A DNA stretch of 40,810 nucleotides from the IMG/VR virus record IMGVR_UViG_3300026089_000016, positions 1 through 40,810 of that record. One strand, 5' to 3'. This document shows positions 7,107 through 25,480 of the stretch, one piece after another (position 1 is the stretch's first letter; every line of letters begins with the position of its first letter). The position numbers and the translations under genes are program-made. Source of the stretch: a virus. Under the pieces are notes generated by a model that saw only the letters and a list, made by a program, of their open reading frames with translations, was not told where the DNA came from and searched no databases.

Positions 7107-7109
7107 ACT

Positions 7110-8839: not shown

Positions 8840-8907
8840 AGATTCAATATAAAGATATCCTATTAGAAAAGCATCAAAAACGGTAGAATACTTAAATATA
8901 TGCTACT

Positions 8908-8923
8908 ATTTATACTTTATAAG
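8908..8923 (+). promoter_or_regulatory. TATA-like promoter before the structured leader
   Basis: ATTTATACTTTATAAG would place transcription initiation around 8940-8945, giving an unusually long leader of about 90 nt for a genome in which most promoters sit about 27 nt before the start codon. Confidence 0.5.
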
Positions 8924-8940
8924 CGTTGATTTTTTCCCAA

Positions 8941-9035
8941 AGTGCAGGGCACGTTAGAAGGGTTCTGGGTTAGGCAAAAGCCAACCCTCCAAATCTTATA
9001 CTTCCCTTACGCAAAAAGTAACAACTTTTTGTATA
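8941..9035 (+). ncRNA. Structured 5' leader (candidate cis-regulatory RNA)
   Basis: GC-rich for the region and contains two clean hairpins: GGGTTAGGC-aaaa-GCCAACCC (8967-8987, eight pairs with one bulged A) and CAAAAAGT-aaca-ACTTTTTG (9012-9031, eight pairs). The second ends 4 nt before the TTG start at 9036, so it could control start accessibility. No ORF with a start codon occupies it. Might also be a small stable RNA; no known riboswitch class recognised. Confidence 0.45.
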
Positions 9036-10472: not shown

Positions 10473-10561
10473 TGTCAGAAGAAAATCCACTTATAGATGA
10501 TTGTGAATGTGAAGAATGTGGAGAGGAGGATTTGGAAGTGATAGAAGAAAATGGTCAATAA
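10472..10561 (+). CDS. Acidic Cys microprotein, 29 aa
   Basis: MSEENPLIDDCECEECGEED...: very acidic, with CECEEC forming a compact metal site. TAATG overlap with the 478-aa gene. Its 3' half overlaps the next start by 11 nt. Confidence 0.5.
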   Translation: MSEENPLIDDCECEECGEEDLEVIEENGQ

Positions 10562-10724
10562 AATAGTAATTAGAGCACAATATTGGGAAGATGATAAAAT
10601 CATATCAGATCATAACGGCGCATTTATGACAGATAATTTAACAATAGTTCAAATACGAGAAATTGCAAAAGATGCATTCAGAAATAGTTTAGCCAGCGTT
10701 CTAACGGATTTGTTGACAAAATGA
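10551..10724 (+). CDS. Unknown 57-aa protein
   Basis: Short alpha/beta protein (KIVIRAQYWEDDKIISD ... IREIAKDAFRNSL). ATGA overlap with the following gene. No family recognised. Confidence 0.55.
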   Translation: MVNKIVIRAQYWEDDKIISDHNGAFMTDNLTIVQIREIAKDAFRNSLASVLTDLLTK

Positions 10725-11296
10725 ATAAGCCAGAAAAGATATTTGCATTCGACGATGGCTCACTTGAGAGTAAAGTTATGCAGCATGAACTAAAGAATAC
10801 ATATGATATTCAACCAATCAAAGTAGAAAAATATGATGATTTACCAACATGGCTAGAAACGGCAATCAAGTACACAGAAGGCGCATTTACAGGCATTATC
10901 AAGATATTCCTACATTTCCCATTTGAAGATTATATTCAAAAAGATATTCGTACAGTAATACAGGAAGCAGAACGCAAGAATCCCAAGTTAAGGATTATTC
11001 CCTGGTATGAACAGGCACATAGACAGGGACTGCAAAACAGAGCAGCCAATTATGGCATAACGACAGAAATCTATGATAAAACATTATTGAATAAAGATGT
11101 AGTGGAGAAGGAACCGTTAGAAAGAGAATATGATAAAAAATATTTAGAGAAAGCGGGCGATTCATTTACAGATAATAAAGAAGTGGCTGATGATGTTATG
11201 AAGGAAATAAAACTATCAGAACCAACAGGCGAATATTCCATAGATAAATCAAACAAGGTAAAAATAAAAAAAACAAAGAAGAAATTTGGAATATAG
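10721..11296 (+). CDS. Unknown 191-aa protein with Lys-rich tail
   Basis: N-terminal 120 residues look like an alpha/beta (Rossmann-like) fold: KIFAFDDGSLESKV, IKIFLHFPFEDY, LRIIPWYEQAH, NYGITTEIYD. The C-terminal 70 residues are charged and end KVKIKKTKKKFGI, likely disordered and nucleic-acid binding. It could be a receiver-like or primase-associated domain, but no catalytic motif supports that. ATGA overlap with the gene before. Confidence 0.65.
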   Translation: MNKPEKIFAFDDGSLESKVMQHELKNTYDIQPIKVEKYDDLPTWLETAIKYTEGAFTGIIKIFLHFPFEDYIQKDIRTVIQEAERKNPKLRIIPWYEQAHRQGLQNRAANYGITTEIYDKTLLNKDVVEKEPLEREYDKKYLEKAGDSFTDNKEVADDVMKEIKLSEPTGEYSIDKSNKVKIKKTKKKFGI

Positions 11297-11441
11297 AAAT
11301 TTATGGCAAAGACAGGTAGTAAATAGTTACAACAATAGCCGCAATATATCAAATTATCCTAAAATAATCCGTTGTAACAAATGTAATACTTGGAGTTATC
11401 GGTATTTAGATTCCATAAATTGTCGAATATGTAATTCTTAA
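11286..11441 (+). CDS. Zinc-ribbon microprotein, 51 aa
   Basis: TTG start inside the end of the previous gene (11-nt overlap). C-terminal knuckles CNKC and CRIC separated by an aromatic SYRYLDSIN. Asn/Tyr-rich N-terminus. Confidence 0.55.
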   Translation: MEYRNLWQRQVVNSYNNSRNISNYPKIIRCNKCNTWSYRYLDSINCRICNS

Positions 11442-11465
11442 TATTAAATTTAACGAAATAGGCAT

Positions 11466-11600
11466 ATGCAAGTAATACAAGGTGAACCACTAGGAACACC
11501 CAACATGAATTTATATGTTAGAAAATGTTTAAAATGCAGGCGCTATTGTTATTTTTATAATGATCAATGCTACCCATGCAATGAGGATAGGTTAAAATAA
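11466..11600 (+). CDS. Cys-rich microprotein, 44 aa
   Basis: MQVIQGEPLGTPNM..., then CLKCRRYC and CYPC. AT-rich DNA just upstream (11441-11460) could hold a minor promoter. First of a run of tiny genes extending to 13967. Confidence 0.6.
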   Translation: MQVIQGEPLGTPNMNLYVRKCLKCRRYCYFYNDQCYPCNEDRLK

Positions 11601-11602
11601 AA

Positions 11603-11689
11603 ATGATGTTCGAGATATTCTTAGTCCAATTTGGTGTTATTGTAACAATAGGATTTTTAGCATTAGTAAAAACTGAGTTAGAAAAGTAA
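11603..11689 (+). CDS. Single-helix membrane microprotein, 28 aa
   Basis: MMFEIFLVQFGVIVTIGFLA forms one transmembrane helix, with a short polar end (KTELEK). The next gene is a probable paralogue (same length, matching LALV end). May be a holin-like or membrane-modulating peptide; inferred only from hydrophobicity. Confidence 0.5.
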   Translation: MMFEIFLVQFGVIVTIGFLALVKTELEK

Positions 11690-11694
11690 ATAAA

Positions 11695-11778
11695 ATGATA
11701 AGTTTAATTCTAATTCTTGTTACAGTCGTGTCAATAATAGGATTAGCAGCATTAGTGCTAGCGGAGACTGACAAATAA
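11695..11778 (+). CDS. Single-helix membrane microprotein, 27 aa
   Basis: MISLILILVTVVSIIGLAAL plus VLAETDK: one hydrophobic helix and a short charged end, like the preceding peptide (GFLALVKTELEK vs GLAALVLAETDK). Confidence 0.5.
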   Translation: MISLILILVTVVSIIGLAALVLAETDK

Positions 11779-11779
11779 A

Positions 11780-11890
11780 ATGACTCTAATTCAGATAGTT
11801 TTTGAGAGTGTTTTATTGGCTGCAATCATAATAATAGTTGCATTAGTATTAGTAGAAGAAAGAAACTGGAATAAAGAAAATGGCAAATAA
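11780..11890 (+). CDS. Single-helix membrane microprotein, 36 aa
   Basis: A hydrophobic segment (VLLAAIIIIVALVLV) is flanked by a polar N-terminus and a charged C-terminal tail (EERNWNKENGK). Starts one base after the previous stop region and overlaps the next gene by 11 nt. Confidence 0.5.
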   Translation: MTLIQIVFESVLLAAIIIIVALVLVEERNWNKENGK

Positions 11891-11984
11891 ATGCTTCAAA
11901 TGTGGCAGACCAATAAACAACCATCCAGGAGTTAAAACCAGATGGGCTATATGTGAGTGGTGCAAGCAACATAAGGATACTTGA
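11880..11984 (+). CDS. Zinc-ribbon microprotein, 34 aa
   Basis: MANKCFKCGRPINN... and CEWCKQH give two CxxC knuckles. Overlaps the preceding membrane-peptide gene by 11 nt. Confidence 0.6.
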   Translation: MANKCFKCGRPINNHPGVKTRWAICEWCKQHKDT

Positions 11985-12051
11985 AAAAATATTCATAATA
12001 GCAGCAATACTCTTAATTACAACAGTGAATATAATATGGTGGTTTGGATGA
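11953..12051 (+). CDS. Single-helix membrane microprotein, 32 aa (start uncertain)
   Basis: From a GTG the product reads MSGASNIRILEKIFIIAAIL and continues with hydrophobic residues to WWFG. The frame is open and hydrophobic, but the start lies inside the previous gene; a shorter product is possible. Confidence 0.35.
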   Translation: MSGASNIRILEKIFIIAAILLITTVNIIWWFG

Positions 12052-12110
12052 TTAAATTGGCAACAATAAAACAAATGAAACGCAGTAGAAGGAGAGAAAA
12101 TAGAAAATGA
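12048..12110 (+). CDS. Basic micro-ORF, 20 aa
   Basis: MIKLATIKQMKRSRRRENRK starts in an ATGA overlap and ends in another. It may be a real basic peptide or simply a coupling ORF carrying GGAGAG, the ribosome site of the next gene. Confidence 0.35.
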   Translation: MIKLATIKQMKRSRRRENRK

Positions 12111-12214
12111 ATCTTATTGGATATATAATAGCACCATATCTTGTTTTTCTGTTCTCAATACTTATTTTTCAAATGATAATATCTTATAGGAGAGAAAGAA
12201 GATGTATGAAATAA
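12107..12214 (+). CDS. Single-helix membrane microprotein, 35 aa
   Basis: A hydrophobic helix (IIAPYLVFLFSILIFQMII) is followed by the basic SYRRERRCMK, predicting positive-inside orientation. ATGA overlap upstream; overlaps the next gene by 13 nt. Confidence 0.5.
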   Translation: MNLIGYIIAPYLVFLFSILIFQMIISYRRERRCMK

Positions 12215-12262
12215 TATGGGTTCCAGCAACAATATTCTTGGCAGGATTAGCAGTAATGATTT
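12202..12262 (+). repeat. 61-nt exact repeat, copy 1 (inverted partner at 21001-21061)
   Basis: Base-for-base identical over 61 nt, third codon positions included, to the complement of 21001-21061. It covers the first 20 codons of a membrane microprotein gene; flanks differ. Confidence 0.9.
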
Positions 12263-12294
12263 ATGGTAGTTTGTATCAGGTAAAAAGTAAATGA
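12202..12294 (+). CDS. Single-helix membrane microprotein, 30 aa, duplicated at 20975-21061
   Basis: MYEIIWVPATIFLAGLAVMI followed by a short polar end (KSK). Its first 61 nt are identical to the minus-strand gene at 21061-20975, proving a duplication and supporting this as a real gene. The end GGTAAAAAGTAAATGA is a junction variant in which the TGA overlaps the next ATG. Confidence 0.65.
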   Translation: MYEIIWVPATIFLAGLAVMIYGSLYQVKSK

Positions 12295-12431
12295 CCTTGC
12301 CTAATTCGCTTCGCTCATGTATCAGACATTGTTGGCACAGTTTGGATTTATTTCATGATGGTTTACCAGAGTTTAAAATGATTCAACTATGCTGTAAATG
12401 TTTGAAAGCGAGAAATCAGGTATGGAAATAG
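12291..12431 (+). CDS. Cys/His microprotein, 46 aa
   Basis: MTLPNSLRSCIRHCWHSLDL and later CCKC provide Cys/His ligands. Its end also contains a 7-codon ORF (12422-12445, MEIEEKK) that carries the junction GAGGAGAAAAAGTAAATG to the next gene. Confidence 0.5.
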   Translation: MTLPNSLRSCIRHCWHSLDLFHDGLPEFKMIQLCCKCLKARNQVWK

Positions 12432-12445
12432 AGGAGAAAAAGTAA

Positions 12446-12559
12446 ATGATTGGTATTTGTTGGATTTGTAAAAAAGAGTATAAATCATTTTATTGGGCAC
12501 ATAAACATCTCGAAAAATCTGGTCATGGTTCAATGAATTGGAAAGAGGATAATAAGTAA
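12446..12559 (+). CDS. C2H2 zinc-finger microprotein, 37 aa
   Basis: CWICKKEYKSFYWAHKHLEK plus SGHG: Cys pair, aromatic spacer and His residues as in C2H2 fingers; ends KEDNK, the junction-encoded tail. Confidence 0.65.
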   Translation: MIGICWICKKEYKSFYWAHKHLEKSGHGSMNWKEDNK

Positions 12560-12718
12560 ATGAAAGTTAAATCATTTCGTATAGAATGGAATAATCATCT
12601 AAGAGAGAGAAGTCGCTATTCATGGGAACCAATTGTATTAGTATCAGATGGTAAAACGGTTTCATGGGAATTTGTTTTAGATGATGGAACTATCATAAAA
12701 GGAGAGGAGAAAAACTAA
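12560..12718 (+). CDS. Unknown 52-aa beta-rich protein
   Basis: Contains alternating strands (SWEPIVLVSDGKTVSWEFVL and DDGTIIKG), no cysteine, and ends GEEKN at a junction variant (GAGGAGAAAAACTAAATG). No family recognised. Confidence 0.55.
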   Translation: MKVKSFRIEWNNHLRERSRYSWEPIVLVSDGKTVSWEFVLDDGTIIKGEEKN

Positions 12719-12892
12719 ATGAATTTTTACAAAAGTTATCCAGTTGGATGTTTATATGATTTAAAATGCCCAAAATGTAAACATCATTTAAGAAATTGTA
12801 TTGATGCATTAACAGGGGGATTCGGTAATGTATATTTCTGTCATGAATGTCCTAATTGGTGGTTTTTTCATATGAATGAGGATAAAAAGTAA
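12719..12892 (+). CDS. Zinc-ribbon microprotein, 57 aa
   Basis: CPKCKHH and CHEC knuckles with aromatic residues between (GGFGNVYF) and a hydrophobic WWFF after; ends NEDKK. Confidence 0.65.
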   Translation: MNFYKSYPVGCLYDLKCPKCKHHLRNCIDALTGGFGNVYFCHECPNWWFFHMNEDKK

Positions 12893-13033
12893 ATGAGAAA
12901 GTGTAATTATTGCTCCCATGTGTATGCCGATGATGATAATCGTTTGGTTGTCACGGCCCATATAATGAAATACCATGAAAAAGAATTTGACCGAGATTTA
13001 CGTAATTATCTAAAAAAAGAGGATGAAAAGTAA
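12893..13033 (+). CDS. C2H2 zinc-finger microprotein, 46 aa
   Basis: CNYCSHVY, then HIMKYHEKEF: Cys-x2-Cys...His-x4-His. Ends KKEDEK at the junction. Confidence 0.7.
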   Translation: MRKCNYCSHVYADDDNRLVVTAHIMKYHEKEFDRDLRNYLKKEDEK

Positions 13034-13129
13034 ATGACTAACTGTTTTCGCTGTTTAACTGATAAATGCAACACGGTAATTGTTAAAGACGATGATTGTG
13101 AATGCTGCCAGAGGAGACATAAAAAGTAA
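13034..13129 (+). CDS. Cys-rich microprotein, 31 aa (paralogue of 6421-6516)
   Basis: CFRCLTDKCNTVIV and CECCQRRHKK keep all cysteine positions of the product at 6421 about 6.6 kb away in a different operon, good evidence for a functional family. Confidence 0.7.
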   Translation: MTNCFRCLTDKCNTVIVKDDDCECCQRRHKK

Positions 13130-13252
13130 ATGATGGTTGATAAACCAGATTCTTTTGAATGTCCTAATTGTGGTATGATAGTAAAATACACTATAGAAGA
13201 TGTTAAGAATCACGTTTGCAACCCAAATACAATAAAGGAGGAGAAAAAGTAA
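13130..13252 (+). CDS. Zinc-finger microprotein, 40 aa
   Basis: ECPNCGMIVKYTIEDVKNHV then C: a C-x2-C...H-x-x-C pattern. Ends KEEKK with GGAGGAGAAAAAGTAAATG before the next gene. Confidence 0.65.
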   Translation: MMVDKPDSFECPNCGMIVKYTIEDVKNHVCNPNTIKEEKK

Positions 13253-13453
13253 ATGAATATAATAGAAAATGTAATAATGAGAGGGATTGAGAATCAAGGA
13301 CTTCCTAAAGGATTTCGTCTAAGTACAATGGCATACGAAGATTTAGAGAACTGTTTAGCAAATATTCCAGAACAAGATAAAGTACCTTTCACAATAGCAT
13401 ATACTCGTGGTTATTCACTAGCAGTTAATGATTTTGGTAAGGATAAAAAGTAA
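13253..13453 (+). CDS. Unknown 66-aa protein
   Basis: No zinc ligands; helical (YEDLENCLANIPEQ) with a conserved-looking VPFTIAYTRGYSLAV. Junction sequences on both sides. No family recognised. Confidence 0.6.
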   Translation: MNIIENVIMRGIENQGLPKGFRLSTMAYEDLENCLANIPEQDKVPFTIAYTRGYSLAVNDFGKDKK

Positions 13454-13570
13454 ATGAATAATATTTGGACATGTGATAGATGTGGAACAGATTATACAGG
13501 TGATCATGAAAGAATCGGATTCACTCCATTTGTATGCAGGAAATGTTTAGATGAAGAGGATAAAAAGTAA
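13454..13570 (+). CDS. Zinc-ribbon microprotein, 38 aa
   Basis: TCDRCGTDY and CRKCL knuckles; ends DEEDKK, the canonical junction tail. Confidence 0.68.
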   Translation: MNNIWTCDRCGTDYTGDHERIGFTPFVCRKCLDEEDKK

Positions 13571-13720
13571 ATGACTGATTTATTAAAATGTCCTAAATGT
13601 AATAAGATTACTTTAGTTGTAGGGGATAGAATTATGACATGTGTTAACCCTAATTGTAATATGCAAATGATTCCACAAGACGAAAGTAATTCATGGTATA
13701 TAGAGGATAAAAGTAAATGA
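13571..13720 (+). CDS. Zinc-ribbon microprotein, 49 aa
   Basis: KCPKCNKI and CVNPNC. The junction here has one A fewer (GAGGATAAAAGTAAATGA), so the frame reads EDKSK and stops at the TGA overlapping the next ATG: natural evidence that junction length changes are tolerated. Confidence 0.68.
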   Translation: MTDLLKCPKCNKITLVVGDRIMTCVNPNCNMQMIPQDESNSWYIEDKSK

Positions 13721-13794
13721 TTGCTATAGTCATATTTAGTATATTTATTGTGTTTATTTGTTTATGGGAATCAGGACTATTGAGTGATATCTAA
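13717..13794 (+). CDS. Single-helix membrane microprotein, 25 aa
   Basis: MIAIVIFSIFIVFICLW followed by a short polar end. ATGA and TAATG overlaps on its two sides. Confidence 0.5.
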   Translation: MIAIVIFSIFIVFICLWESGLLSDI

Positions 13795-13967
13795 TGACAT
13801 CAACTAAAGAAGTCTATGAGTTTCTAAAAGATGCTCATGGAATAAAGCCAGCCATATGCAAACATTGTATGAATAGAGATGTAGAAGTATGGCAGGATAA
13901 CTTTGAGGGCTGCTACTATTGCTGGTGTACCTTATGTACTCCCAACATAACCCCACCCCCAGAATGA
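13794..13967 (+). CDS. Cys-rich protein, 57 aa
   Basis: CKHC, then CYYCWCTLC: six cysteines and many aromatics, ending in Pro-rich NITPPPE. Last gene before the packaging operon. Confidence 0.6.
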   Translation: MTSTKEVYEFLKDAHGIKPAICKHCMNRDVEVWQDNFEGCYYCWCTLCTPNITPPPE

Positions 13968-14007
13968 TAATTAGTTCATAATATTAATTGTCCCTAATTG
14001 TCCCTTA
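13968..14007 (+). promoter_or_regulatory. Candidate late promoter before the terminase operon
   Basis: TAATTAGTTCATAA followed by two direct copies of TAATTGTCCC (13985-14004 region). Similar (T)TAAT(A)GTTCCC elements stand 25-45 nt before most other structural operons. Confidence 0.55.
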
Positions 14008-14008
14008 A

Positions 14009-14422
14009 ATGCCAAACAAGGCTAGAGAGCAGGTACAACGAGAAATCAATCTCATTATTAGATTACAGGGCGAAGGATTAAAGAAAGAACAGATTATTGA
14101 TCAATTACAAATATCAGAAAGAACATATAAACGATATAAACGTAGAATAATTGCCCAGGTAGTCAAATCATGGAAACAAGAAAACAAAGATATTGCTGAT
14201 TATAGACTGGCACAATTTGAGCAATCATTAGAAGATTGCTATAACTCTAATCTAAAGATAGTTATCAATACTAATTCATCAGCAAGGGATATTCAAGAAT
14301 CTTCTAAAATTATGGTCACATGTAGAGCGCAACTGGCAAAACTGGCAAGAGATGGACCAGTATTCCAACCAGTGTTACCACGAGAGGTAGTTCCAATTGA
14401 AACAGCAGAAAGTACAATTTGA
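14009..14422 (+). CDS. terS: Terminase small subunit (DNA-recognition)
   Basis: 137 aa, a typical size. Residues about 12-47 contain a helix-turn-helix (LIIRLQGEGLKKEQIIDQLQ, then ISERTYKRYKRRI), as in TerS pac-site binding domains, followed by an oligomerisation helix. It lies directly before the large subunit and overlaps it by 26 nt. It should bind the viral genome end and load TerL. Start chosen at the ATG behind the candidate late promoter; no Shine-Dalgarno sequence. Confidence 0.8.
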   Translation: MPNKAREQVQREINLIIRLQGEGLKKEQIIDQLQISERTYKRYKRRIIAQVVKSWKQENKDIADYRLAQFEQSLEDCYNSNLKIVINTNSSARDIQESSKIMVTCRAQLAKLARDGPVFQPVLPREVVPIETAESTI

Positions 14423-15902
14423 GGACTGCGTTGATTGGTACCTTCGCAGCCCTCAAGATGAATCAAGTTCAAGCAATGGCGACAACAACCATCTTGTTGG
14501 TAGCACTGACAGCCTTAACAATATATTCAATACCTTTCTAGATAAACCTTTCTATATCTGGACACCAGAACACCAACAGGTAAAAGGCATTCATAATTGC
14601 TGCTTTTCTCATATGGTTGGCCTACCCTTGAAGAATGATGTAGAACACCCCTGGTACGATTATGAAAAAGAGATATTTGATGCAATGGAAGGCCCTTTAC
14701 ACATATGGATTAAAAAGTCTAGAGGCATCGGAGTTACCACATTTTTATTATATTATCTAACTTGGAAGATGTGCGTCTCCAATGACCTAGATAACAAAAA
14801 CATATTCATAATTTCGGGAACTAAAGAAGAGATGGCAAATGACATAAAGAAAAGAATGGAGAAGGTATTTGATAGAGGTTATCCTCTTTTAAGACTACAA
14901 TCTAAATATACAGAGTTATGGATTAAGAAAACATGGATTAAGGTATTCCCATCCAAGAATGTCAAGGCCATGAGAGGCTACATTGATGTAAACTATATAT
15001 TCGTAGATGAATCAGACTTCTTTGAATCTATTGAACAAAATGAACTCGAATTTGTTATTAAGAGTTACGAAGAAAAATCAAAAGGAAAAATTATTATGGT
15101 GTCAACACCCAATAGGCCCGACGGTTTATTTTATAAAATCGAACACGAACATAAGTTTGGTAAATCATACTTCAATAAAATTTTCCTTGACTACAGAAGG
15201 GGACTTGGTAAAATCTACGATGATGATTTTATTGCAAGAGAGCGTAACGAACCTTATTTTGAACGTGAATATAACCTCAAATATCTCGGTAAGATAGGCA
15301 ATGTCTTTTCAGCATCACTAATACAACAATGCACTGATTTAGGTGAGAAATATAGAGGGACCTGGATTAATCAGTTCTGCGCCCATCCAGTAGGTGTTGA
15401 TTATGGTTATTCAGATAGTAAAACCGTTATCTGTGTAGGAGAATGGCTAGAAGATGAGAAAGTATTAAGGATAATGAAGATGGAAGATTTTGGAGATACA
15501 CCACCAACCCCCGAACAGGTAGCAAATACCATGTTTGAAATATTCCTAGAGTATGGACCTAATACCCATTTCTTTGTTGATGGCTCACATGCTGCATCAG
15601 TTAATCAAGCAAAGATAAAATTCGGTGAGAATCTAAACTGGCGCAGGCAAGATGTTTACAGTAGAAGAGATAGAATCCACCCAATACATTTCGGATACAA
15701 TCAAGAACATAAAAGGTTATTAGAGAACATGTACCATCTAGCAAGTGATGGTAAACTGGCAATAGATAAAAGATATGAGAAACTTATTACTGCTATGAGG
15801 ACAGCGCAAATGATGGATGATTGGGATTTGCAGAAATCAGAAACTGTGTTTAATGATCATTTAGATGCTGCTAGGTTGATGTGTAGAGGTATTATAAGAT
15901 GA
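14397..15902 (+). CDS. terL: Terminase large subunit (packaging ATPase and nuclease)
   Basis: 501 aa. Walker A-like KSRGIGVTT at 107-115, Walker B YIFVDESD at 200-207, coupling motif STPN at 236-239. RNase H-like nuclease acidic residues: D335 (VGVDYG), D395 (FVDG) and D487/D490 (FNDHLDA). This is the standard two-domain packaging motor that cuts and translocates DNA through the portal. TTG start within the terS end; the first 50 residues are Ser/Asn-rich and may start later. ATGA overlap with the next gene. Confidence 0.93.
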   Translation: MKQQKVQFEDCVDWYLRSPQDESSSSNGDNNHLVGSTDSLNNIFNTFLDKPFYIWTPEHQQVKGIHNCCFSHMVGLPLKNDVEHPWYDYEKEIFDAMEGPLHIWIKKSRGIGVTTFLLYYLTWKMCVSNDLDNKNIFIISGTKEEMANDIKKRMEKVFDRGYPLLRLQSKYTELWIKKTWIKVFPSKNVKAMRGYIDVNYIFVDESDFFESIEQNELEFVIKSYEEKSKGKIIMVSTPNRPDGLFYKIEHEHKFGKSYFNKIFLDYRRGLGKIYDDDFIARERNEPYFEREYNLKYLGKIGNVFSASLIQQCTDLGEKYRGTWINQFCAHPVGVDYGYSDSKTVICVGEWLEDEKVLRIMKMEDFGDTPPTPEQVANTMFEIFLEYGPNTHFFVDGSHAASVNQAKIKFGENLNWRRQDVYSRRDRIHPIHFGYNQEHKRLLENMYHLASDGKLAIDKRYEKLITAMRTAQMMDDWDLQKSETVFNDHLDAARLMCRGIIR

Positions 15903-16114
15903 TAATTGAGATAACTACTAGTATTGTATTATTTATCGCATCAATAGTAGTATTTGTTTTAACAATACCCCTCATCATTGAGATATATAAAAACAAAAAG
16001 GATGGGTTTAATGATTTAGTAGTTTATGGTATAATGCTACTATTATTCATTTTTACAATTGCAATTGCCATGATGCTAATGTCATTAGGCCTATTGGAAT
16101 TCATAACAAAATGA
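15899..16114 (+). CDS. Small two-helix membrane protein (possible holin)
   Basis: 71 aa with two hydrophobic segments (residues about 6-28 and 43-66) separated by a basic/acidic loop (EIYKNKKDGFND). Size and topology fit small holins, but its location between terL and portal and the absence of an endolysin nearby make this tentative. ATGA overlaps at both ends. Confidence 0.55.
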   Translation: MIIEITTSIVLFIASIVVFVLTIPLIIEIYKNKKDGFNDLVVYGIMLLLFIFTIAIAMMLMSLGLLEFITK

Positions 16115-16515
16115 ACAGTAAAAAAAGAAAACCAGCAATTAGTGTTATAGGTGATGAATACACTGATGAAGATGAAATATATTGTCCAATGTGTAAAAAG
16201 GTAGGAATAAAATCAAAGATGCAACCACTGGATCCAATAGAAGCGCAACAGAAACAATATCACGCAGATGAATATCTTTACTGCCCTTATTGCAAAAGAG
16301 ATTCACCAGTTCATACAGTTCAAGGAGAAGGTGGATACCAACCAGCATTTGATTTAGTTAAAACTCATTATGAATCAGGATCAGAGTTTGCCAGTGTAGA
16401 ACCTAGAAAGAAAAAGCCTAAAAGAAATGCTAATAAGATACATCAAACAGATGATCCAGATATATTATCAGAAAAAGGTAATGTTAATGTAGTTTTTGAT
16501 AGCGGCAATTATTAG
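16111..16515 (+). CDS. Zinc-ribbon protein between terminase and portal, 134 aa
   Basis: YCPMCKKVG (about 28-31) and YCPYCKRD (about 58-61) form a ribbon; the C-terminal half is basic (RKKKPKRNANK), then polar. It could bind DNA or the packaging complex; no family recognised. Last gene of the terS operon before the candidate late promoter. Confidence 0.65.
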   Translation: MNSKKRKPAISVIGDEYTDEDEIYCPMCKKVGIKSKMQPLDPIEAQQKQYHADEYLYCPYCKRDSPVHTVQGEGGYQPAFDLVKTHYESGSEFASVEPRKKKPKRNANKIHQTDDPDILSEKGNVNVVFDSGNY

Positions 16516-16539
16516 TTCCCTAACTTATTAGTTCGTTAA
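16509..16539 (+). promoter_or_regulatory. Tandem late-promoter-like motif before portal gene
   Basis: Two direct copies 16 nt apart: TTATTAGTTCCCTAA (16509) and TTATTAGTTCGTTAA (16525). The portal GTG start is 8 nt after the second copy. The spacing of one to two helical turns suggests a protein-binding site. Confidence 0.6.
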
Positions 16540-16546
16540 TAAATAT

Positions 16547-18124
16547 GTGCAACGATATCCTGACCCAACATGGTATGATAATGATTATACTAATAATATA
16601 AATGACCAGGTTAAACAAAGAAAACCAAAAGAACATGAATCTGCTTTTAGTTCAATAGCCAAACGTAATTTTGCTAAATCAGAAGTAACAGGCAATAAAT
16701 CACTTGCTGCTGCTTCAATAGATAATCTAGTCACTGTTCTTAAAACTGATCAACTAAAACAATGCGGTCTTGCTTATATCAATAATGGAATAGTTCGAAC
16801 AATAGTAGATAGAACAGTTTACTTTATCAATCCAGAGCGAACAGATTTCGTAATAGAACCTAACGATGAACTTACAACAGGATTAGACGATGACGCAATA
16901 AAGAAACTAGAAAAACAGATAGATGATGATACTCTAACTGATGAGGAAGGCAACTCATTAAGAATCAAAGAGTTAAAACAAAAACTTACCCGTATTAATA
17001 AGAGAGTCAAACTTCATAGCAGTTTAGATAAACTGTTGGCTTCGACTCTAATATTCGGTAGAGGCGCTTTAAAGATAGTCAAGTTTCCAAATACACCAAA
17101 TGAAGACGGTAGTGCAACAAAAGGAGAACCAAGAGCATTATTGCACCTGGCAAGTATGAGAATCAAAGAAATTATTGCAGATGAAGCAACTGGACAATTT
17201 GTAGGATTAAAGTATGATGATGGTAAAGCGCTAGCAACTGGACCTAAAAGATACAATGCAGATGAATTGATACCAGCATTTAATGATGATTACAATATTC
17301 TAGATAACTCTAACTATTCAGGCTTATCAGCAGTATGGCCCATCCTAGAAGCAGCCAATGTTATAGATGTCATACTAGCAGAAGATATGCCCGAGATAGC
17401 AAGACAAGCACATTCCAAATTCGGTATAATGTATGCTGGTACTAGTAAGAAGTCAACGATTAAGAAACTCAAAGAAGAACTTGAAGCGGGTACATGGCTA
17501 GTCCACAACGAACAACAGTTGACAGCAGATGTTCATGATTTATCACTAGATCCAATGAGACTAATGGAAGTCATAAACGCATTAGCAAAACATATGTCTA
17601 TTTCTATGAATCTACCTTTATTCATGCTTTTTGAAGATACTACCAATTTTGCAACTGCCAACCAAGTGATGCAAGTGTATAAAACTGGTGTTCTAACACG
17701 TTATCGCACATGGCTTCAGGGAATTTTGGAAGACTATTGGTATGATCCAATTTTAGCAGATCACTTAGGTATTGATGTAGAAGACGTAATAAGCGCACCA
17801 ATACGAATTAAAGCAATATTCCAGGATATAAACTTTGAAACAAGAAAAGATATCATTGATGCAGATAAGATACTGATGGATGAAGGTGTATTTACCAATG
17901 TTGACACAGCAAAAGATATTGACCGTAAGGATATTGCAAACAGGCTACAACTAGAAGAGACTGAGATTAACAAAGCCGTGACAGTTCAGCGCCAGCAAGA
18001 TATTCAAGCGCAAGCACTAAATAATCCTAATAATAATAACAATGGTGGAAACCAACCAAATAAACAGCCAGCAAACAATTTCAATAAAAACAGGAATCAA
18101 AATGCTCGAAACACACAAGGTTAA
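16547..18124 (+). CDS. Portal protein
   Basis: 525 aa, a normal size. It sits between terL and the MuF-like gene. The core contains the long helical stem region and acidic segments usual in portals, with IVRTIVDRTVYFINPERTDF and ...AEDMPEIARQAHSKFGIMYA typical of archaeal and phage portals. N-terminal KSLAAAS at 51-57 matches motifs in the protease/scaffold and major capsid proteins and may be a maturation cut. The last 30 residues are Asn/Gln-rich and probably disordered. GTG start; the competing ATG two bases upstream is out of frame. Confidence 0.85.
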   Translation: MQRYPDPTWYDNDYTNNINDQVKQRKPKEHESAFSSIAKRNFAKSEVTGNKSLAAASIDNLVTVLKTDQLKQCGLAYINNGIVRTIVDRTVYFINPERTDFVIEPNDELTTGLDDDAIKKLEKQIDDDTLTDEEGNSLRIKELKQKLTRINKRVKLHSSLDKLLASTLIFGRGALKIVKFPNTPNEDGSATKGEPRALLHLASMRIKEIIADEATGQFVGLKYDDGKALATGPKRYNADELIPAFNDDYNILDNSNYSGLSAVWPILEAANVIDVILAEDMPEIARQAHSKFGIMYAGTSKKSTIKKLKEELEAGTWLVHNEQQLTADVHDLSLDPMRLMEVINALAKHMSISMNLPLFMLFEDTTNFATANQVMQVYKTGVLTRYRTWLQGILEDYWYDPILADHLGIDVEDVISAPIRIKAIFQDINFETRKDIIDADKILMDEGVFTNVDTAKDIDRKDIANRLQLEETEINKAVTVQRQQDIQAQALNNPNNNNNGGNQPNKQPANNFNKNRNQNARNTQG

Positions 18125-18263
18125 CTTTCAAGGTATTGCAGAGATAAAAGAGCAGATTAAACTAATCCAATCTTTATTAGGCCAAGCATATGAAGAAATC
18201 AACAAGTTATCTAATATGGGTATTACATTAGTGATAGAACATGATCAACAATCAGAAGATTGA
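18102..18263 (+). CDS. Small helical protein overlapping the portal end, 53 aa
   Basis: ATG at 18102 gives MLETHKVNFQGIAEIKEQIK, a predicted helical hairpin. A longer in-frame start at 18042 lies deep inside the Asn-rich portal tail and is less likely. Overlaps portal and the next gene. No family recognised. Confidence 0.55.
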   Translation: MLETHKVNFQGIAEIKEQIKLIQSLLGQAYEEINKLSNMGITLVIEHDQQSED

Positions 18264-18414
18264 ATGTCGTATATGCGGTAGAGATGTTAGATTCATAGGC
18301 GGTTTTGGGTATAGTAGAACAGGTGCAAAGCCATTATGTAATGATTGTATAGGAAGTCCTGAACATGAAAGGGAATTAAATGAATATAAGAAAAACCAAC
18401 AGAGAGATAACTAA
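18241..18414 (+). CDS. Zinc-ribbon microprotein, 57 aa
   Basis: ECRICGRDV and CNDC knuckles, then a charged helix. Overlaps both the preceding gene (23 nt) and the MuF-like gene (35 nt). Confidence 0.62.
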   Translation: MINNQKIECRICGRDVRFIGGFGYSRTGAKPLCNDCIGSPEHERELNEYKKNQQRDN

Positions 18415-19138
18415 AAAACTAGGAACAATTGAAAACGCTCTCAAAAGGAAATTAAACGCTTTCTATAACAATAATATCAAAGGTTCCATAGCACCAATCG
18501 AATCATTACAACTAAAATACAACACAACAATCAGAAACATAATTAGGAAAACCGTTCAAGACGGATATCAGGCAGGCAGCAACCTAGTCACAGACCAAAT
18601 ATCAAATATCAATTCAGATTTTGTACCATTTATATCAGTTACAGATGTTCAAAATATTCAATTGGTTACAGACAAAGTTAGCAATCAATTCTGGAAAACA
18701 TCGGGTAGATTGCATAGAAGAGAAACCGAATTCATAGCAAAACCAGAAGGATTAGATTTAAAGCCACAGTTTGATACTACAGCAGCAATGATTGGATTAT
18801 CAGCATTTGCAACATTTTCAGCATTTAATAACGCCGTTATATCAAAGATGCAAATACTCAATAACCCATTTGAATTAGGTATTGGATTCGGTAGTCTTCA
18901 AACAGTAGGAGAAGGTGAATTATCTGTACAAATAACTGACTTATCAACAATGACTGGTAGAGTTATGTTTCTCACTCAAGAAGATGCAGTAGTGGATCCT
19001 GAAATATGCGCACCTTTGAACAGAACGGTTTATGACCCATCTATTGATCTAGATATACCTGAACCACCACTGCACAACCATTGCAGATGTAGATTAGTAC
19101 CATTCATAAATGAATCCAACGATATAGGTCCACTTTAG
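18380..19138 (+). CDS. MuF-like minor head protein
   Basis: 252 aa. The C-terminal motif PPLHNHCRCRLVPF (about 229-242) and upstream VDPEICAPLN (about 205-214) match the phage head-morphogenesis (Mu gpF) domain, which has C-x-x-L...LHP-x-C-R-C. Position after the portal is canonical. Helical N-terminus; probably an internal head protein involved in assembly or ejected with DNA. A hairpin with T-run follows its stop. Confidence 0.85.
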   Translation: MNIRKTNREITKKLGTIENALKRKLNAFYNNNIKGSIAPIESLQLKYNTTIRNIIRKTVQDGYQAGSNLVTDQISNINSDFVPFISVTDVQNIQLVTDKVSNQFWKTSGRLHRRETEFIAKPEGLDLKPQFDTTAAMIGLSAFATFSAFNNAVISKMQILNNPFELGIGFGSLQTVGEGELSVQITDLSTMTGRVMFLTQEDAVVDPEICAPLNRTVYDPSIDLDIPEPPLHNHCRCRLVPFINESNDIGPL

Positions 19139-19141
19139 TAC

Positions 19142-19167
19142 CTCACTATTTAATAATGAGTTTTTTT
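19142..19167 (+). terminator. Hairpin plus T-run after the MuF-like gene
   Basis: CTCACTATTTAATAATGAG forms a stem (seven pairs, one C-A mismatch) followed by seven Ts. A T-rich run alone suffices for archaeal termination; it closes the portal operon. Confidence 0.6.
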
Positions 19168-19178
19168 ATAGTAAGATT

Positions 19179-19355
19179 ATGAATTTGGAACAACGAAACA
19201 ACCTGAGAAAATTATTATTAGATGTCATTGCATATGCACAAGTGAACAAACATATAAATAGATTAGAAGTCGAGGCTCTGATTCAATATATATCAGATCA
19301 AGAAGCATATAGAATAGTTCAAGAAAAATACAATCCATTGGATAATCGGAAATGA
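19179..19355 (+). CDS. Unknown 58-aa helical protein
   Basis: MNLEQRNNLRKLLLDVIAYA, then EVEALIQYISDQEAYRIVQE: two or three helices, no cysteines. First gene after the terminator; ATGA overlap with the next. Confidence 0.55.
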   Translation: MNLEQRNNLRKLLLDVIAYAQVNKHINRLEVEALIQYISDQEAYRIVQEKYNPLDNRK

Positions 19356-19489
19356 GATACCAATGTAAGAAAGGATCGTTCATTGATAAATTTAGATTTA
19401 CAACTGGTGAGAATTTGGATTATAAATATGAGGTTGCTAAAGAAGTTGATTTTGAAATAATCTTAAAGAAAAAAGAAGAAAGTAAATGA
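19352..19489 (+). CDS. Unknown 45-aa protein
   Basis: Basic-acidic strand-rich peptide (KFRFTTGENLDYKYEVAKEV) ending KKKEESK, a junction-type tail; TGA overlaps the next ATG. Confidence 0.5.
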   Translation: MRYQCKKGSFIDKFRFTTGENLDYKYEVAKEVDFEIILKKKEESK

Positions 19490-19662
19490 AATCTTGGAGA
19501 TTTTCTACAAAAGGCATTTCCATAGAATTACTAAAACCAGAAAATGATGAATACTGGTTTGATATCAGGAGTGGGCGAATGGGTGGTAATTTTTCGATTC
19601 CAAAAGATGAATTAAAGAAACTTGAAGTATTTATAAAAACAATATTAGAGGATAAAAAGTAA
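19486..19662 (+). CDS. Unknown 58-aa protein with junction tail
   Basis: Beta-rich N-terminus (WRFSTKGISIELL ... YWFDIRSG) followed by a helix and LEDKK; canonical GAGGATAAAAAGTAAATG at its end. Confidence 0.55.
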   Translation: MKSWRFSTKGISIELLKPENDEYWFDIRSGRMGGNFSIPKDELKKLEVFIKTILEDKK

Positions 19663-20190
19663 ATGACCATAGTTCCTAAACTGTTACAACAATCCAATCT
19701 ATCATTAATGGATAGCACTATACAAATAATAGAAGTCGAGCATCCAGATTATAACAGTGAAACAAAATGCAACAATTGTAAAAGAACTGGATATTGGAAT
19801 AAAGGTGTAATTAATAGGAAGACCAAGAGGCTAGCATTACTTGAAGAACCTTATAGGCCTGACGCAGGAATCTCACCTAAACGACATCTATGTATGAAAG
19901 ATGGCGTAGACAAATGGATTAACAAGTATGAGAAAATAAATATGCGTTTATATGACTATAAGCAACAACATTTTATGTGTATTGAATGTGCTAGAGAATT
20001 CAATAAAGAGATTTATCCTTTATGTCCAAGTTGCTGGAAAATGGAATGTCGACAATGTCATGCTAGAGTACCCTGGCGAGCAAATAAAGAATCATATTGC
20101 GTTGATTGTGGCTATGAAAAGAGAGATGCAGTTCATGTCTGGCGCTCTATGTATAGACTTTATGGTAAGCCTAAGGAAGTGGAATTATGA
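19663..20190 (+). CDS. Multi-zinc-knuckle protein, 175 aa
   Basis: Eleven cysteines arranged as pairs C36/C39, C106/C109, C121/C124, C129/C132, C146/C149, plus C77: probably two or three zinc sites, the last four pairs resembling interleaved ribbons (double zinc ribbon). The largest zinc protein of the microprotein arrays. No catalytic motif seen. Ends ATGA over the next gene. Confidence 0.7.
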   Translation: MTIVPKLLQQSNLSLMDSTIQIIEVEHPDYNSETKCNNCKRTGYWNKGVINRKTKRLALLEEPYRPDAGISPKRHLCMKDGVDKWINKYEKINMRLYDYKQQHFMCIECAREFNKEIYPLCPSCWKMECRQCHARVPWRANKESYCVDCGYEKRDAVHVWRSMYRLYGKPKEVEL

Positions 20191-20285
20191 TTTGTGAGTT
20201 ATGCGGTAAGTTAGCAGAACACGATAGTAATATTTGTATCAAATGTTGGAATGAAATAGTAATTAATGAAGAGGATAAAAAGTAA
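20187..20285 (+). CDS. Zinc-ribbon microprotein, 32 aa
   Basis: MICELCGKLA and CIKCW knuckles; ends NEEDKK at a canonical junction. Confidence 0.66.
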   Translation: MICELCGKLAEHDSNICIKCWNEIVINEEDKK

Positions 20286-20462
20286 ATGCTAGTGAAAATA
20301 GTATGTTCAGAATGTGAGAAAGGCAATCATAAACAATGCCATGATATTAGAATCGATCAGTTTAAACATCAGAAATTTTTTAGCACAAAAATAGATTGTC
20401 CTTGTAGAGTAAAGAATCATGAAGGTTTTGGTCTTTTAAAAATAGAAGAGGATGAAAAGTAA
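20286..20462 (+). CDS. Cys/His-rich microprotein, 58 aa
   Basis: CSECEKGNHKQCHD and CPCRVKNHEG: many Cys/His ligands, enough for one or two metals. Ends EEDEK at junction GAGGATGAAAAGTAAATG. Confidence 0.65.
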   Translation: MLVKIVCSECEKGNHKQCHDIRIDQFKHQKFFSTKIDCPCRVKNHEGFGLLKIEEDEK

Positions 20463-20570
20463 ATGACAGTAGTCTGTCCTAATTGTAAAAAAGAAACTGT
20501 AATAATAGAATATCCTAGCGAACATTTCTGTTCATTATGTATGTATCAATTTTGGAGAAAAAGTAAATGA
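20463..20570 (+). CDS. Zinc-ribbon microprotein, 35 aa
   Basis: VCPNCKKE and CSLC knuckles; the junction variant GGAGAAAAAGTAAATGA makes the TGA overlap the next ATG. Confidence 0.65.
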   Translation: MTVVCPNCKKETVIIEYPSEHFCSLCMYQFWRKSK

Positions 20571-20689
20571 GATTCTTTTGTTGCTGTCAGTGTAACTGTC
20601 CACCAACATGTCCATGCCAATGTCCTTGTGATTGCAGTCGTTGTATAATAATTGTAAAAGGTGATAATAGAACCTATGAATATGACTAG
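20567..20689 (+). CDS. Metallothionein-like Cys-cluster microprotein, 40 aa
   Basis: Residues 5-26 contain 11 cysteines in C-C-C and C-x-C runs interspersed with Pro (CNCPPTCPCQCPCDCSRC). The density and C-x-C spacing are like metallothioneins (multi-metal thiolate clusters), not single zinc ribbons. The remaining tail is hydrophilic. Converges with and overlaps by 4 nt the minus-strand gene at 20686-20829. Possible metal storage or redox buffering, or a metal-cluster protein; not assigned to a known family. Confidence 0.6.
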   Translation: MRFFCCCQCNCPPTCPCQCPCDCSRCIIIVKGDNRTYEYD

Positions 20690-20829
20690 CGCAACATAGA
20701 TAATTTAAAACCACAAAAAGGGCAATATTTGAAGTGAAAGACATCTTGCGCTTCTCTAACAGTCCAGGGCTCTTCATTACCACTATCAGCCAGTTCTTCT
20801 AGTAGTTCATCACAACAATAGAAAGTCAT
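20686..20829 (-). CDS. Zinc-ribbon microprotein, 47 aa
   Basis: YCCDELLEEL near the start and YCPFCGFKL at the end give a ribbon separated by an acidic helix. Last gene of the SprT minus operon; start overlaps the upstream stop (ATGA). Confidence 0.62.
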   Translation of the reverse strand: MTFYCCDELLEELADSGNEEPWTVREAQDVFHFKYCPFCGFKLSMLR

Positions 20830-20969
20830 ACTTGAATTCCACCCTCATTGTCACTATCATCCCTATAAAATCTATCAAACATTCTATCCTGTCTTTTCAC
20901 AGTAAACCATATCGTAGTCATAGTAGCCAACATTATAGCAATACCAGTTAAGACATATAGCCAATCCAT
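20826..20969 (-). CDS. Single-helix membrane protein, 47 aa
   Basis: MDWLYVLTGIAIMLATMTTI begins a hydrophobic helix, followed by KRQDRMFDRFYRDD. An upstream in-frame ATG (73 aa) exists but overlaps the preceding gene; the MDWLY start is favoured. Confidence 0.55.
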   Translation of the reverse strand: MDWLYVLTGIAIMLATMTTIWFTVKRQDRMFDRFYRDDSDNEGGIQV

Positions 20970-20974
20970 TATTT

Positions 20975-21061
20975 TTATTTCACCGAATACAGACTTCCCC
21001 AAATCATTACTGCTAATCCTGCCAAGAATATTGTTGCTGGAACCCATATTATTTCATACAT
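20975..21061 (-). CDS. Single-helix membrane microprotein, 28 aa, duplicate of 12202-12294
   Basis: Same first 20 residues as the product at 12202 (61 nt identical), then WGSLYSVK instead of YGSLYQVKSK. Start overlaps the SprT-like stop (TAATG). Confidence 0.65.
   Translation of the reverse strand: MYEIIWVPATIFLAGLAVMIWGSLYSVK
21001..21061 (-). repeat. 61-nt exact repeat, copy 2 (inverted partner at 12202-12262)
   Basis: Identical to copy 1 in opposite orientation. Different flanks show that the gene, not a larger segment, moved or was copied. Confidence 0.9.
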
Positions 21062-21468
21062 TATTTACGCTTACGCCTCATATTCTTATACTCTTTCCCC
21101 ATGAGAATCATTCCCAACTTCTTCCAGAAATCCTCCCCATGTTCTAATCTAGGAAATCTAACATGCAACATTTCATGCGCTATTGTATCTTCCAATTCTG
21201 CAATAGATTTATGATACTCTAAATTAATAATCATCAAATGCGGCTTTTTAGAACCAGAGATACATGTAACAGCAGCATATTTTTTATACGCTCGTACTGC
21301 CCTATTCTTCAAGGCTTCTTTTGGTATATTATCAAGGTTAAAGAATACATAGGGCGCTTTATTTATTCCAAGTTGCTTGTTATACTTGGCAACTGTCTCG
21401 TCGATCCACTCAACAACAGCAGGTAATTGCTTCAATAATCCTTTTATTATCTTGAATATACTAGACAA
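21061..21468 (-). CDS. SprT-like zinc metalloprotease
   Basis: 135 aa with TIAHEMLHVRFP (HExxH at 98-102) and the third ligand candidate in EHGEDFWKKL (H110), the pattern of SprT/Spartan-like or WLM-like metalloproteases; short for the family. Such enzymes cleave DNA-protein crosslinks or process proteins. It leads a minus-strand operon with two membrane peptides and a zinc ribbon. TTG start; the N-terminal 20 residues are helical. Confidence 0.75.
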   Translation of the reverse strand: MSSIFKIIKGLLKQLPAVVEWIDETVAKYNKQLGINKAPYVFFNLDNIPKEALKNRAVRAYKKYAAVTCISGSKKPHLMIINLEYHKSIAELEDTIAHEMLHVRFPRLEHGEDFWKKLGMILMGKEYKNMRRKRK

Positions 21469-21472
21469 GTAA

Positions 21473-21619
21473 TTGAATTGTACTTGTGGTCATAGAGAAG
21501 AATCACATTGGATTGTATGCGATGGCGACAGGCCCTGTTTAGTAGACCTTTATAATGATGATGTTTGTTTATGTACCAACTTTTCCACCGCTAATACTTC
21601 CCTAGTTGGTAATTCATGA
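21473..21619 (+). CDS. Cys/His-rich microprotein, 48 aa
   Basis: From a TTG: MNCTCGHREESHWIVC ... CLVDLYNDDVCLCTN. It shares a C-x-C-x-H...G/D-x-C-L-C pattern with 26687 (C-terminus) and 27016. Divergent from the SprT gene. Polar Ser/Thr end without ligands. Confidence 0.5.
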   Translation: MNCTCGHREESHWIVCDGDRPCLVDLYNDDVCLCTNFSTANTSLVGNS

Positions 21620-21893
21620 TTATAAAAATACGTCAACTGAGCGAAATTTCATAATAGAAGATAAAGATAAAATGTTATTCACTTTAATGAAAGTAATAGT
21701 GGATGCTGACTTTCCACCCTTAGATGATATTCGCTGTATTGCAATGATGGCCGAACTACATAGAAGAAAAAGAAAATATGCATATAAAGAACTCAAAGAC
21801 GGCACCATCTATATCCATTTCCCACGAATTAATCCCATAGAGTTTATCTGTCAGTGTTTATATAATTTAGGGATGAAGCGATTACGAAAATGA
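21606..21893 (+). CDS. Unknown 95-aa protein
   Basis: Predicted alpha/beta (DKMLFTLMKVIVDADFPPLD, RRKRKYAYKELKDGTIYIHF). The TTG start at 21606 overlaps the previous gene; an ATG at 21672 would shorten it by 22 residues. ATGA overlap downstream. No family recognised. Confidence 0.55.
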   Translation: MVIHDYKNTSTERNFIIEDKDKMLFTLMKVIVDADFPPLDDIRCIAMMAELHRRKRKYAYKELKDGTIYIHFPRINPIEFICQCLYNLGMKRLRK

Positions 21894-22030
21894 TTAAAAT
21901 AGATTCCAAAACATTCTACAAGGACAACTACATGATATACAATTCAAACAGAAAATCATGGGTTTGTGATTGTGAAGGTTTTAGATATACTGGTGATTGT
22001 AAACATATTGAAGAGGCTAAAACACTATGA
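21890..22030 (+). CDS. SWIM-type zinc-finger microprotein, 46 aa
   Basis: WVCDCEGFRYTGDCKHIEEA contains the C-x-C-x(n)-C-x-H signature of SWIM zinc fingers, usually seen as modules in helicases, transposases or recombination factors. Here it is almost the whole protein, preceded by a short strand-rich segment. Function unknown; DNA or protein binding likely. Confidence 0.72.
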   Translation: MIKIDSKTFYKDNYMIYNSNRKSWVCDCEGFRYTGDCKHIEEAKTL

Positions 22031-22122
22031 ATTGTTACAGATGTGGTGCAGAATTAAAAAGTATTGCCTGTAAATCTAAATGTCTTAATTGTGGTTATAG
22101 TTTGGATTGTTCTGATTTTTAA
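22027..22122 (+). CDS. Zinc-ribbon microprotein, 31 aa
   Basis: MNCYRCGAELK and CLNCGYSL; a minimal two-knuckle ribbon. Its stop is embedded in the next late-promoter-like motif. Confidence 0.65.
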   Translation: MNCYRCGAELKSIACKSKCLNCGYSLDCSDF

Positions 22123-22130
22123 TAGTTCCC
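22119..22130 (+). promoter_or_regulatory. Late-promoter-like motif before the methyltransferase gene
   Basis: TTAATAGTTCCC, 27 nt before the GTG at 22157, the same 12 nt as at 23803-23814. Confidence 0.6.
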
Positions 22131-22156
22131 ACAAATAAACAAAATTAATTGTTTAT

Positions 22157-23680: not shown

Positions 23681-23800
23681 ATGTTCTTCTAACTTCTCAG
23701 ATAACAAAAATCTAGTCCAGCAATTCTTCCAATCCATATACATAGTTTCTAACATCTGACAGTATAGTAAGAATGATTGGATAAACTCTTTATTATACAA
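23669..23800 (-). CDS. Possible 43-aa peptide converging on the methyltransferase
   Basis: Minus-strand TTG ORF, aromatic and Cys/Met-rich (QSFLLYCQMLETMYMDW), ending EEHLPF. It overlaps the methyltransferase end by 12 nt and fills an otherwise empty 160-nt gap. No ribosome site; may be fortuitous. Confidence 0.3.
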   Translation of the reverse strand: MYNKEFIQSFLLYCQMLETMYMDWKNCWTRFLLSEKLEEHLPF

Positions 23801-23802
23801 TA

Positions 23803-23814
23803 TTAATAGTTCCC
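23803..23814 (+). promoter_or_regulatory. Late-promoter-like motif before the capsid operon
   Basis: TTAATAGTTCCC, 28 nt before the TTG at 23842; identical to the element at 22119. Confidence 0.62.
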
Positions 23815-23841
23815 ATTTTATTAAATAACAGAATTAATATA

Positions 23842-25002: not shown

Positions 25003-25004
25003 AA

Positions 25005-25475: not shown

Positions 25476-25480
25476 TAGTC

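Follow-up and report, generated by a model that had tools for sequence, protein, structure and literature searches.

The stretch of DNA analysed here, a virus record of 40,810 bases (IMGVR_UViG_3300026089_000016; referred to as the window), carries a recurring junction of ca. 18 bases in which a ribosome-binding site, a stop codon and a start codon are combined. Comparison with a related virus demonstrated that genes have been gained, lost and relocated with breakpoints at these junctions. Based on these observations, we consider it fairly likely that the short conserved boundary sequence permits the exchange of single genes by recombination together with their coupled translation. The window was compared with G002 (59,413 bases), to which it is identical at 99.98-100% along its whole length except for 7 bases at the ends of G002; since the window spans these ends, the map, of ca. 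59,420 bases, is either circular or permuted. The related virus is G003 (59,656 bases, 59.7 kb). All records are metagenome assemblies; the junction-rich array of the window's virus is covered by two records, and a second record of G003 leaves the array out. Genes were called with a simple script, and coordinates are those of the window unless G002 or G003 is named.

A recurring junction between small genes

When both strands of the window were scanned with GAGGATAAAAAGTAAATG at up to 3 mismatches, 14 matches were found where 100 dinucleotide shuffles predict 0.11, and the core GAKRAAAAGTAAATG at up to 1 mismatch gave 16 matches against 0.04 expected. Including degenerate forms, 22 copies were counted. 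The preliminary description had reported about 20 copies on both strands; all of its coordinates fell within a few bases of ours, and its list was extended by a plus-strand copy at 13115-13132 and a degenerate minus-strand copy at 1269-1286. On the plus strand, an array at 12.2-13.7 kb contains the junctions at 12276-12293 (TCAGGTAAAAAGTAAATG), 12431-12448 and 13238-13255 (both GAGGAGAAAAAGTAAATG), 12545-12562 (GAGGATAATAAGTAAATG), 12704-12721 (GAGGAGAAAAACTAAATG), 12878-12895 and 13556-13573 (both the exact consensus), 13019-13036 (GAGGATGAAAAGTAAATG), 13115-13132 (variant AGACATAAAAAGTAAATG), 13439-13456 (AAGGATAAAAAGTAAATG) and 13703-13719 (with a 1-base deletion). A group at 19.6-20.6 kb comprises two exact consensus copies (19648-19665, ahead of gene 19663, and 20271-20288), 20448-20465 (GAGGATGAAAAGTAAATG) and 20552-20569 (TTGGAGAAAAAGTAAATG), and a single copy lies at 8.0 kb (8027-8044, variant TCTGGTGAAAAGTAAATG). 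Minus-strand groups are located at 1.3-2.3 kb (1269-1286, GAGGATAAAAAATAAAGT; 1381-1398, variant AGAGAGGATGAGTAAATG; 1540-1557, GGAGATAAAAAGTAAATG; 2252-2269, variant AGAGGACAAAAGTAAATG) and at 32.7-32.9 kb (variants AAAAAGGATAAGTAAATG at 32746-32763 and AGAGGATAAAAGTAAATG at 32836-32853). The degenerate copy GAGGATAAAAAATAAAGT lies at the 3' end of gene 1279, and the homologous place in G003 has an intact GAGGATAAAAAGTAAATG. The structural region of G002, the longer record (7104-25713), contains no junctions.

Mean pairwise identity at positions -15 to -1 was 0.73 over 21 junctions. The 81 other starts of the window reached 0.31, and a subset of 24 with a Shine-Dalgarno (SD)-like motif reached 0.34. 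The SD sequence and AT bias alone are thus insufficient to account for the similarity. Positions -8 to -1 are almost invariant, and a GGAG/GAGG-type motif precedes 16 of the 20 junction starts counted, mostly by 9-11 nt. Most upstream genes read the junction as GAG GAT AAA AAG TAA and end in E-D-K-K. However, genes 12202 and 20463, the latter at junction 20552-20569, read it in the +1 frame as x-AAA-AGT-AAA-TGA (x-K-S-K-stop, the stop being the TGA of ATGA), and gene 13571 ends in I-E-D-K-S-K through the 1-base deletion in its junction. Since the same junction is read in two frames, it is the DNA that is conserved and not the peptide, and the E-D-K-K tail is a by-product. The canonical junction followed by A (GAGGATAAAAAGTAAATGA) contains a stop in every frame (TAA, TGA, and the TAA within GGATAA). 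An inverted-repeat search of the two main arrays found nothing recurring at the junctions, and searches for Rfam families and tRNAs found none.

The joined genes are mostly small and Cys-rich without clear mutual homology; genes 12202, 12560 and 13253 are not Cys-rich, and genes 1550 and 19663 are larger. In all-versus-all blastp of these genes, no match was better than E 0.004, and the weak matches obtained mostly involved zinc-ribbon Cys motifs; the genes are thus mostly not paralogues, in line with the earlier statement that the junction connects unrelated genes. These results bear on the possibility that the array grew from one gene by tandem duplication and that the tails are its conserved remnant. 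Many cassettes do encode short Cys-rich zinc-ribbon proteins, and a true paralogous array with a common R-Y tail lies nearby at 5180-6003. However, the blastp result, the same junction at the non-ribbon genes 12560, 13253 and 12202, and the reading of the junction DNA in two frames all speak against such an origin, which we regard as very improbable. In the array at 5180-6003, all zinc-ribbon paralogues end in R-Y-stop and four overlap the next TTG start through an ATATTGA-type sequence; a related array is present at 54.6-55.6 kb of G003. Considered as a possible second type of junction, this array was dropped on account of the paralogy of its zinc-ribbon genes.

When 2.9 million viral contigs were scanned twice, the matches listed were mostly isolated copies, situated at ordinary gene junctions in unrelated contigs. 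Among the records that were searched whole, many copies were found only in this virus and G003. A search of 400 Nitrososphaeria genomes, the predicted host class, at up to 1 mismatch from GAGGAKRAAAAGTAAATG gave 22 matches, close to the reversed-pattern control, with no genome showing clusters. A host-derived motif was therefore ruled out, the junction occurring at chance level in these genomes. In the same 400 genomes, the 12560-type protein had one weak match, which contained stop codons, and a search run without a positive control returned no match to the 20286-type protein.

Gene gain, loss and relocation at junctions

In pairwise alignments of the window and G003, homology begins and stops at the junction. 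Of 16 block ends, 13 lay within 10 nt of a junction, and 6 of the 8 exchanged blocks had a junction at both ends. For blocks bounded at both sides (6/8 or 6/7), p was about 3e-4 to 8e-4 when random genes or random small genes served as the null, values which are guides because the exchange events are not fully independent. The preliminary description had interpreted the junction as a modular cassette boundary that should show precise breakpoints between genomes; such breakpoints are present and support it.

Synonymous divergence (dS), which was computed here from short genes, sets seven junction genes apart. These genes (1279, 1384, 12202, 12560, 12719, 13571 and 20286) had dS of 0.03-0.32, against a median of 1.16 for the 63 other orthologue pairs (Mann-Whitney p 1.2e-5; p 1.7e-4 against small genes only); the backbone has diverged, with a median dS of about 1.2. 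Six of the seven have junctions at both sides and 12202 at its 3' end only; four are at different loci in the two viruses, two of them on the opposite strand. Gene 20286 (20286-20462, plus strand, 58 aa) is found in the other array, at G003 5060-5236, with 98.9% nucleotide identity and dS 0.03. Gene 1384 (1384-1542, minus strand, 52 aa, dS 0.26) lies at G003 5237-5404 on the opposite strand with different neighbours, and gene 1279 (1279-1383, minus strand, 34 aa, zinc-ribbon-like), 98% identical in nucleotides over the aligned codons with dS 0.07, lies at G003 5594-5695, also on the opposite strand. All three are thus inside the G003 array, 1384 and 1279 being reversed in strand relative to the genome. 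Gene 12560 (12560-12718, plus strand, 52 aa, not a zinc ribbon) stands alone between two backbone genes at G003 12262-12432, and the window counterpart of that locus (21893-21932, plus strand) is an empty site.

The C-terminal ends of two relocated genes differ between the viruses. Gene 1384 ends in RILREDE in the window versus RILRGYKANEM in G003, and gene 12560 in IIKGEEKN versus IIKGKKEELND. Since the gene bodies move and their tails are replaced, the E-D-K-K tail belongs to the border. The preliminary description, in which the upstream protein receives such a tail irrespective of its family, is borne out in this respect.

Within the corresponding array, genes 12202 (12202-12294, plus strand, a 30-aa membrane protein; G003 4797-4889, dS 0.06), 12719 (12719-12892, plus strand, 57 aa; G003 4886-5059, dS 0.17, both neighbours different) and 13571 (13571-13720, plus strand, a 49-aa zinc ribbon; G003 5703-5849, dS 0.19, different upstream neighbour) keep their order with different genes in between. 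The five junction-bounded cassettes at 12893-13570 on the plus strand (12893, 13034, 13130, 13253 and 13454) have no homologue in G003, and a block of four genes (20187-20690, plus strand) is missing at the orthologous G003 site. In a control region of small genes without standard junctions (2776-7023), all 11 genes with a G003 homologue were syntenic. One of the syntenic genes, of 70 aa (3457-3669), had dS 0.19, compared with about 1.2 for its neighbours, which probably reflects recent allelic exchange or strong constraint.

Because every record is a metagenome assembly, chimeric contigs might have produced these rearrangements. This explanation is largely refuted and has almost no probability left: the identity between the window and G002 is 99.98-100%, G003 is matched at 99.995% by a 20.5-kb record across the part which that record covers (the array lies outside it), and the cassettes carry real substitutions.

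A more serious alternative is that the junction serves translation only, as an optimal coupled ribosome site that is convergent or copied, and that illegitimate recombination followed by selection for whole genes places the breaks at gene borders. It is in keeping with the presence of SD, stop and start in the junction, with the exact single copies that occur, among the matches listed, at true gene junctions of many unrelated viral contigs, and with several insertions at borders without a junction. However, other SD-bearing starts reach only 34% identity at -15 to -1 versus 73%, positions -9 to -4 (AAAAAG) are nearly fixed with no known need, and the small genes of the junction-less control region stayed in place. 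We therefore judge the translation-only explanation to be unlikely, though worth serious consideration, and favour exchange at the conserved boundary sequence.

Exchange at other borders and a possible mechanism

Several observations weigh against exchange at the boundary sequence. The informative genomes are two and the exchange events few. Genes 12202, 12719 and 13571 are in the same order in the two arrays and possibly arrived together as one block, after which the arrays diverged by gain and loss of cassettes. Breakpoints cannot be placed inside the junction, as a homology block naturally ends by running into the shared junction sequence. Some insertions are at gene borders that are not junctions (G003 12262-12432; 12107-12214; 20978-21061; 29130-29835). 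Among these, a single extra membrane-protein gene (12107-12214, plus strand), missing from G003, occupies the left array edge. A second copy of the 12202 gene body (20978-21061, minus strand, 84 bp, 91.7%) lies between genes whose G003 orthologues are adjacent. The FkbM-type methyltransferase gene 29159 (29130-29835) is 95% identical to G003 19078-19783 and has been relocated among its neighbours, which are at ca. 70% and in a different order; it is a recent exchange without standard junctions. A 25-codon gene after 13720, following the junction with the 1-base deletion and missing from G003, is another insertion at a non-standard border. In addition, a shared 47-bp stretch (1537-1582 and G003 5517-5562) extends ca. 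25 bases upstream of the junction; it covers the end of gene 1550 and of G003 gene 5394, and both proteins end in GLPDDFGY[KR]R. The insertions at other borders and the 47-bp stretch imply that recombination is not confined to the junction. Finally, no annealing protein was recognised, neither virus having a match to RecT or Erf.

In the G003 gene at 5394-5593 (L022), the last ten codons match the end of gene 1550; a junction-like sequence and the short remnant of a frame come next, and the whole looks like recombination debris.

We propose that the junction acts as a standard connector between single-gene cassettes in accessory operons. A cassette would be an open reading frame in which the final codons include the ribosome-binding site for the gene behind it and the stop codon abuts or overlaps the start of that gene. 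Co-infecting viral genomes would cross over at non-allelic junctions, guided by the junction homology itself; this is possible since many junctions at several loci, and those of relatives, share the same 12-18 bases. Single genes would thereby be inserted, deleted or moved with the operon unbroken. After such an exchange, a ribosome finishing one gene would re-initiate on the next. Archaea are known to use SD-dependent termination-reinitiation (Huber et al. 2019, cited in PMC7531240), and the arrangement described there, adjacent or overlapping stop and start with an SD sequence ahead of the distal cistron, is found at the junctions; the stop-start layout thus suggests translational coupling. 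Termination-reinitiation as such, however, is a general mechanism of expression that has neither a fixed sequence nor a connection with gene exchange.

The acting enzyme may be a RadA-type recombination activity of the host or the product of gene 1550 (1550-2254, minus strand), which lies between two junctions and encodes a Cas4/RecE-like PD-(D/E)XK exonuclease (PDDEXK_1 2e-10, Cas4 9e-6, phrog_1706 2.4e-22). This gene is syntenic and diverged in G003 (dS 1.11), and its product is a candidate recombination enzyme. In phages, systems of the lambda Red type are known to recombine DNA that has diverged, and they have been connected with mosaicism (PMC2327257). Two further genes encode DNA-active enzymes: an HNH endonuclease gene (7446-7892), for which no homologue was found in G003, and a DNA methyltransferase gene of the N6/N4 type (22157-23680; Pfam 1.5e-33), which is conserved in both viruses.

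The arrangement resembles integron cassettes in its working, in that units of a single ORF enter and leave arrays at a border sequence that recurs. Unlike in integrons, the borders are at several loci and on both strands and carry no inverted-repeat attC, and the tyrosine integrase profile PF00589 had no match in G002 or G003, although control genomes matched. The lack of an integrase match and of recurring inverted repeats speaks against an integron-like integrase system. A dedicated integrase-free exchange system of integron-like type, in which a viral or host recombination activity prefers the junction and the site doubles as a translational connector with stops in three frames in its canonical form, seems doubtful to us.

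Known repeats, host and significance

The nearest known kind of element is the Start-Associated Sequences (SAS) of Cluster K mycobacteriophages (Pope et al. 2011), of which the function is unknown and a role in translation was suggested (PMC3203893). SAS are short asymmetric repeats present in 11-19 copies per genome just ahead of the starts of genes of different families; they include the SD and sometimes the upstream stop, occupy the non-structural half and are missing from the host. The junction shares the last two features, and its 22 copies likewise include the SD and lie a few nucleotides before the starts of genes of different families. However, the 13-bp SAS repeat is 5'-GGGATAGGAGCCC, compared with the consensus GAGGATAAAAAGTAAATG here, and about half of the SAS have upstream 17-bp inverted repeats (extended SAS, ESAS), of which none recurs at the junctions. 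The junction was not classed as SAS because both its sequence and the extended inverted repeats differ in this way. It moreover encodes the end of the upstream gene product and is located at synteny breakpoints, whereas the SAS passages describe no gene exchange at the repeat.

The likeness to SAS raises the possibility that the repeat is a start-associated regulatory site, recognised by a protein or RNA factor, of the virus or the host, that controls translation of a regulon, gene movement being secondary. Placement, copy number and avoidance of structural genes are as in SAS (PMC3203893). However, there is no known binding partner, the repeat can shift by 1 base and vary in its SD, and it lies also inside the upstream coding end, where gene content changes. 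A regulatory site as the primary function is therefore improbable.

Short conserved boundary sequences were proposed for the modules of lambdoid phages (Susskind & Botstein 1978; Clark et al. 2001, cited in PMC3029335), where short homology at the borders enables homologous recombination and yields mosaic genomes. Shared sequence is likewise present at the module borders described here, and the homology to the relative changes there (13 of 16 ends). In this archaeal virus, unlike in lambdoid phages, one sequence stands at some twenty borders at several loci, making non-allelic exchange of single genes possible. The present junction combines the ideas of SAS and of boundary sequences in one element. 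The preliminary description knew of no archaeal virus system built in this way; the literature searched gave no archaeal precedent either, but the idea itself is known for bacterial phages (PMC3203893; cited in PMC3029335).

The virus is a tailed virus, and its host is likely to be found among the soil ammonia-oxidising archaea (Nitrososphaeria). Its terminase matches that of the Nitrososphaera provirus Nvie-Pro1 at 31%, and related terminases are present in 42 of 400 Nitrososphaeria genomes with a best identity of ca. 50%; the host prediction is based on these relatives. The proviruses with related terminases have little else in common with the virus and no recurring junction. When relatives were sought with the terminase, two conserved, probably tail or capsid proteins, a portal-like protein and one cassette protein, few additional records were obtained: besides the two known viruses, the scans gave only G409, which is a second copy of G003, and a fragment of a third virus with structural genes only. 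For protein 9036, which is conserved and 478 aa long, structure prediction gave a mean pLDDT of 40, too low for use.

In both viruses, a promoter-like motif TTA[GC]TTCC[CT]TA lies 34-37 nt before the starts of structural and other large genes without SD (16513, 27098 and 31546; G002 24674; G003 1551, 8304, 17701, 24029, 46260 and 51242). It is possibly a late promoter of leaderless transcripts.

It has long been asked whether viral genomes become mosaics through homologous recombination at short boundary sequences or through illegitimate recombination combined with selection. Since one sequence is present at most of the recent boundaries between the two viruses, at several loci, this question becomes directly testable here. 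As far as the literature searched shows, no connector of this kind would have been found before among viruses of soil ammonia-oxidising archaea.

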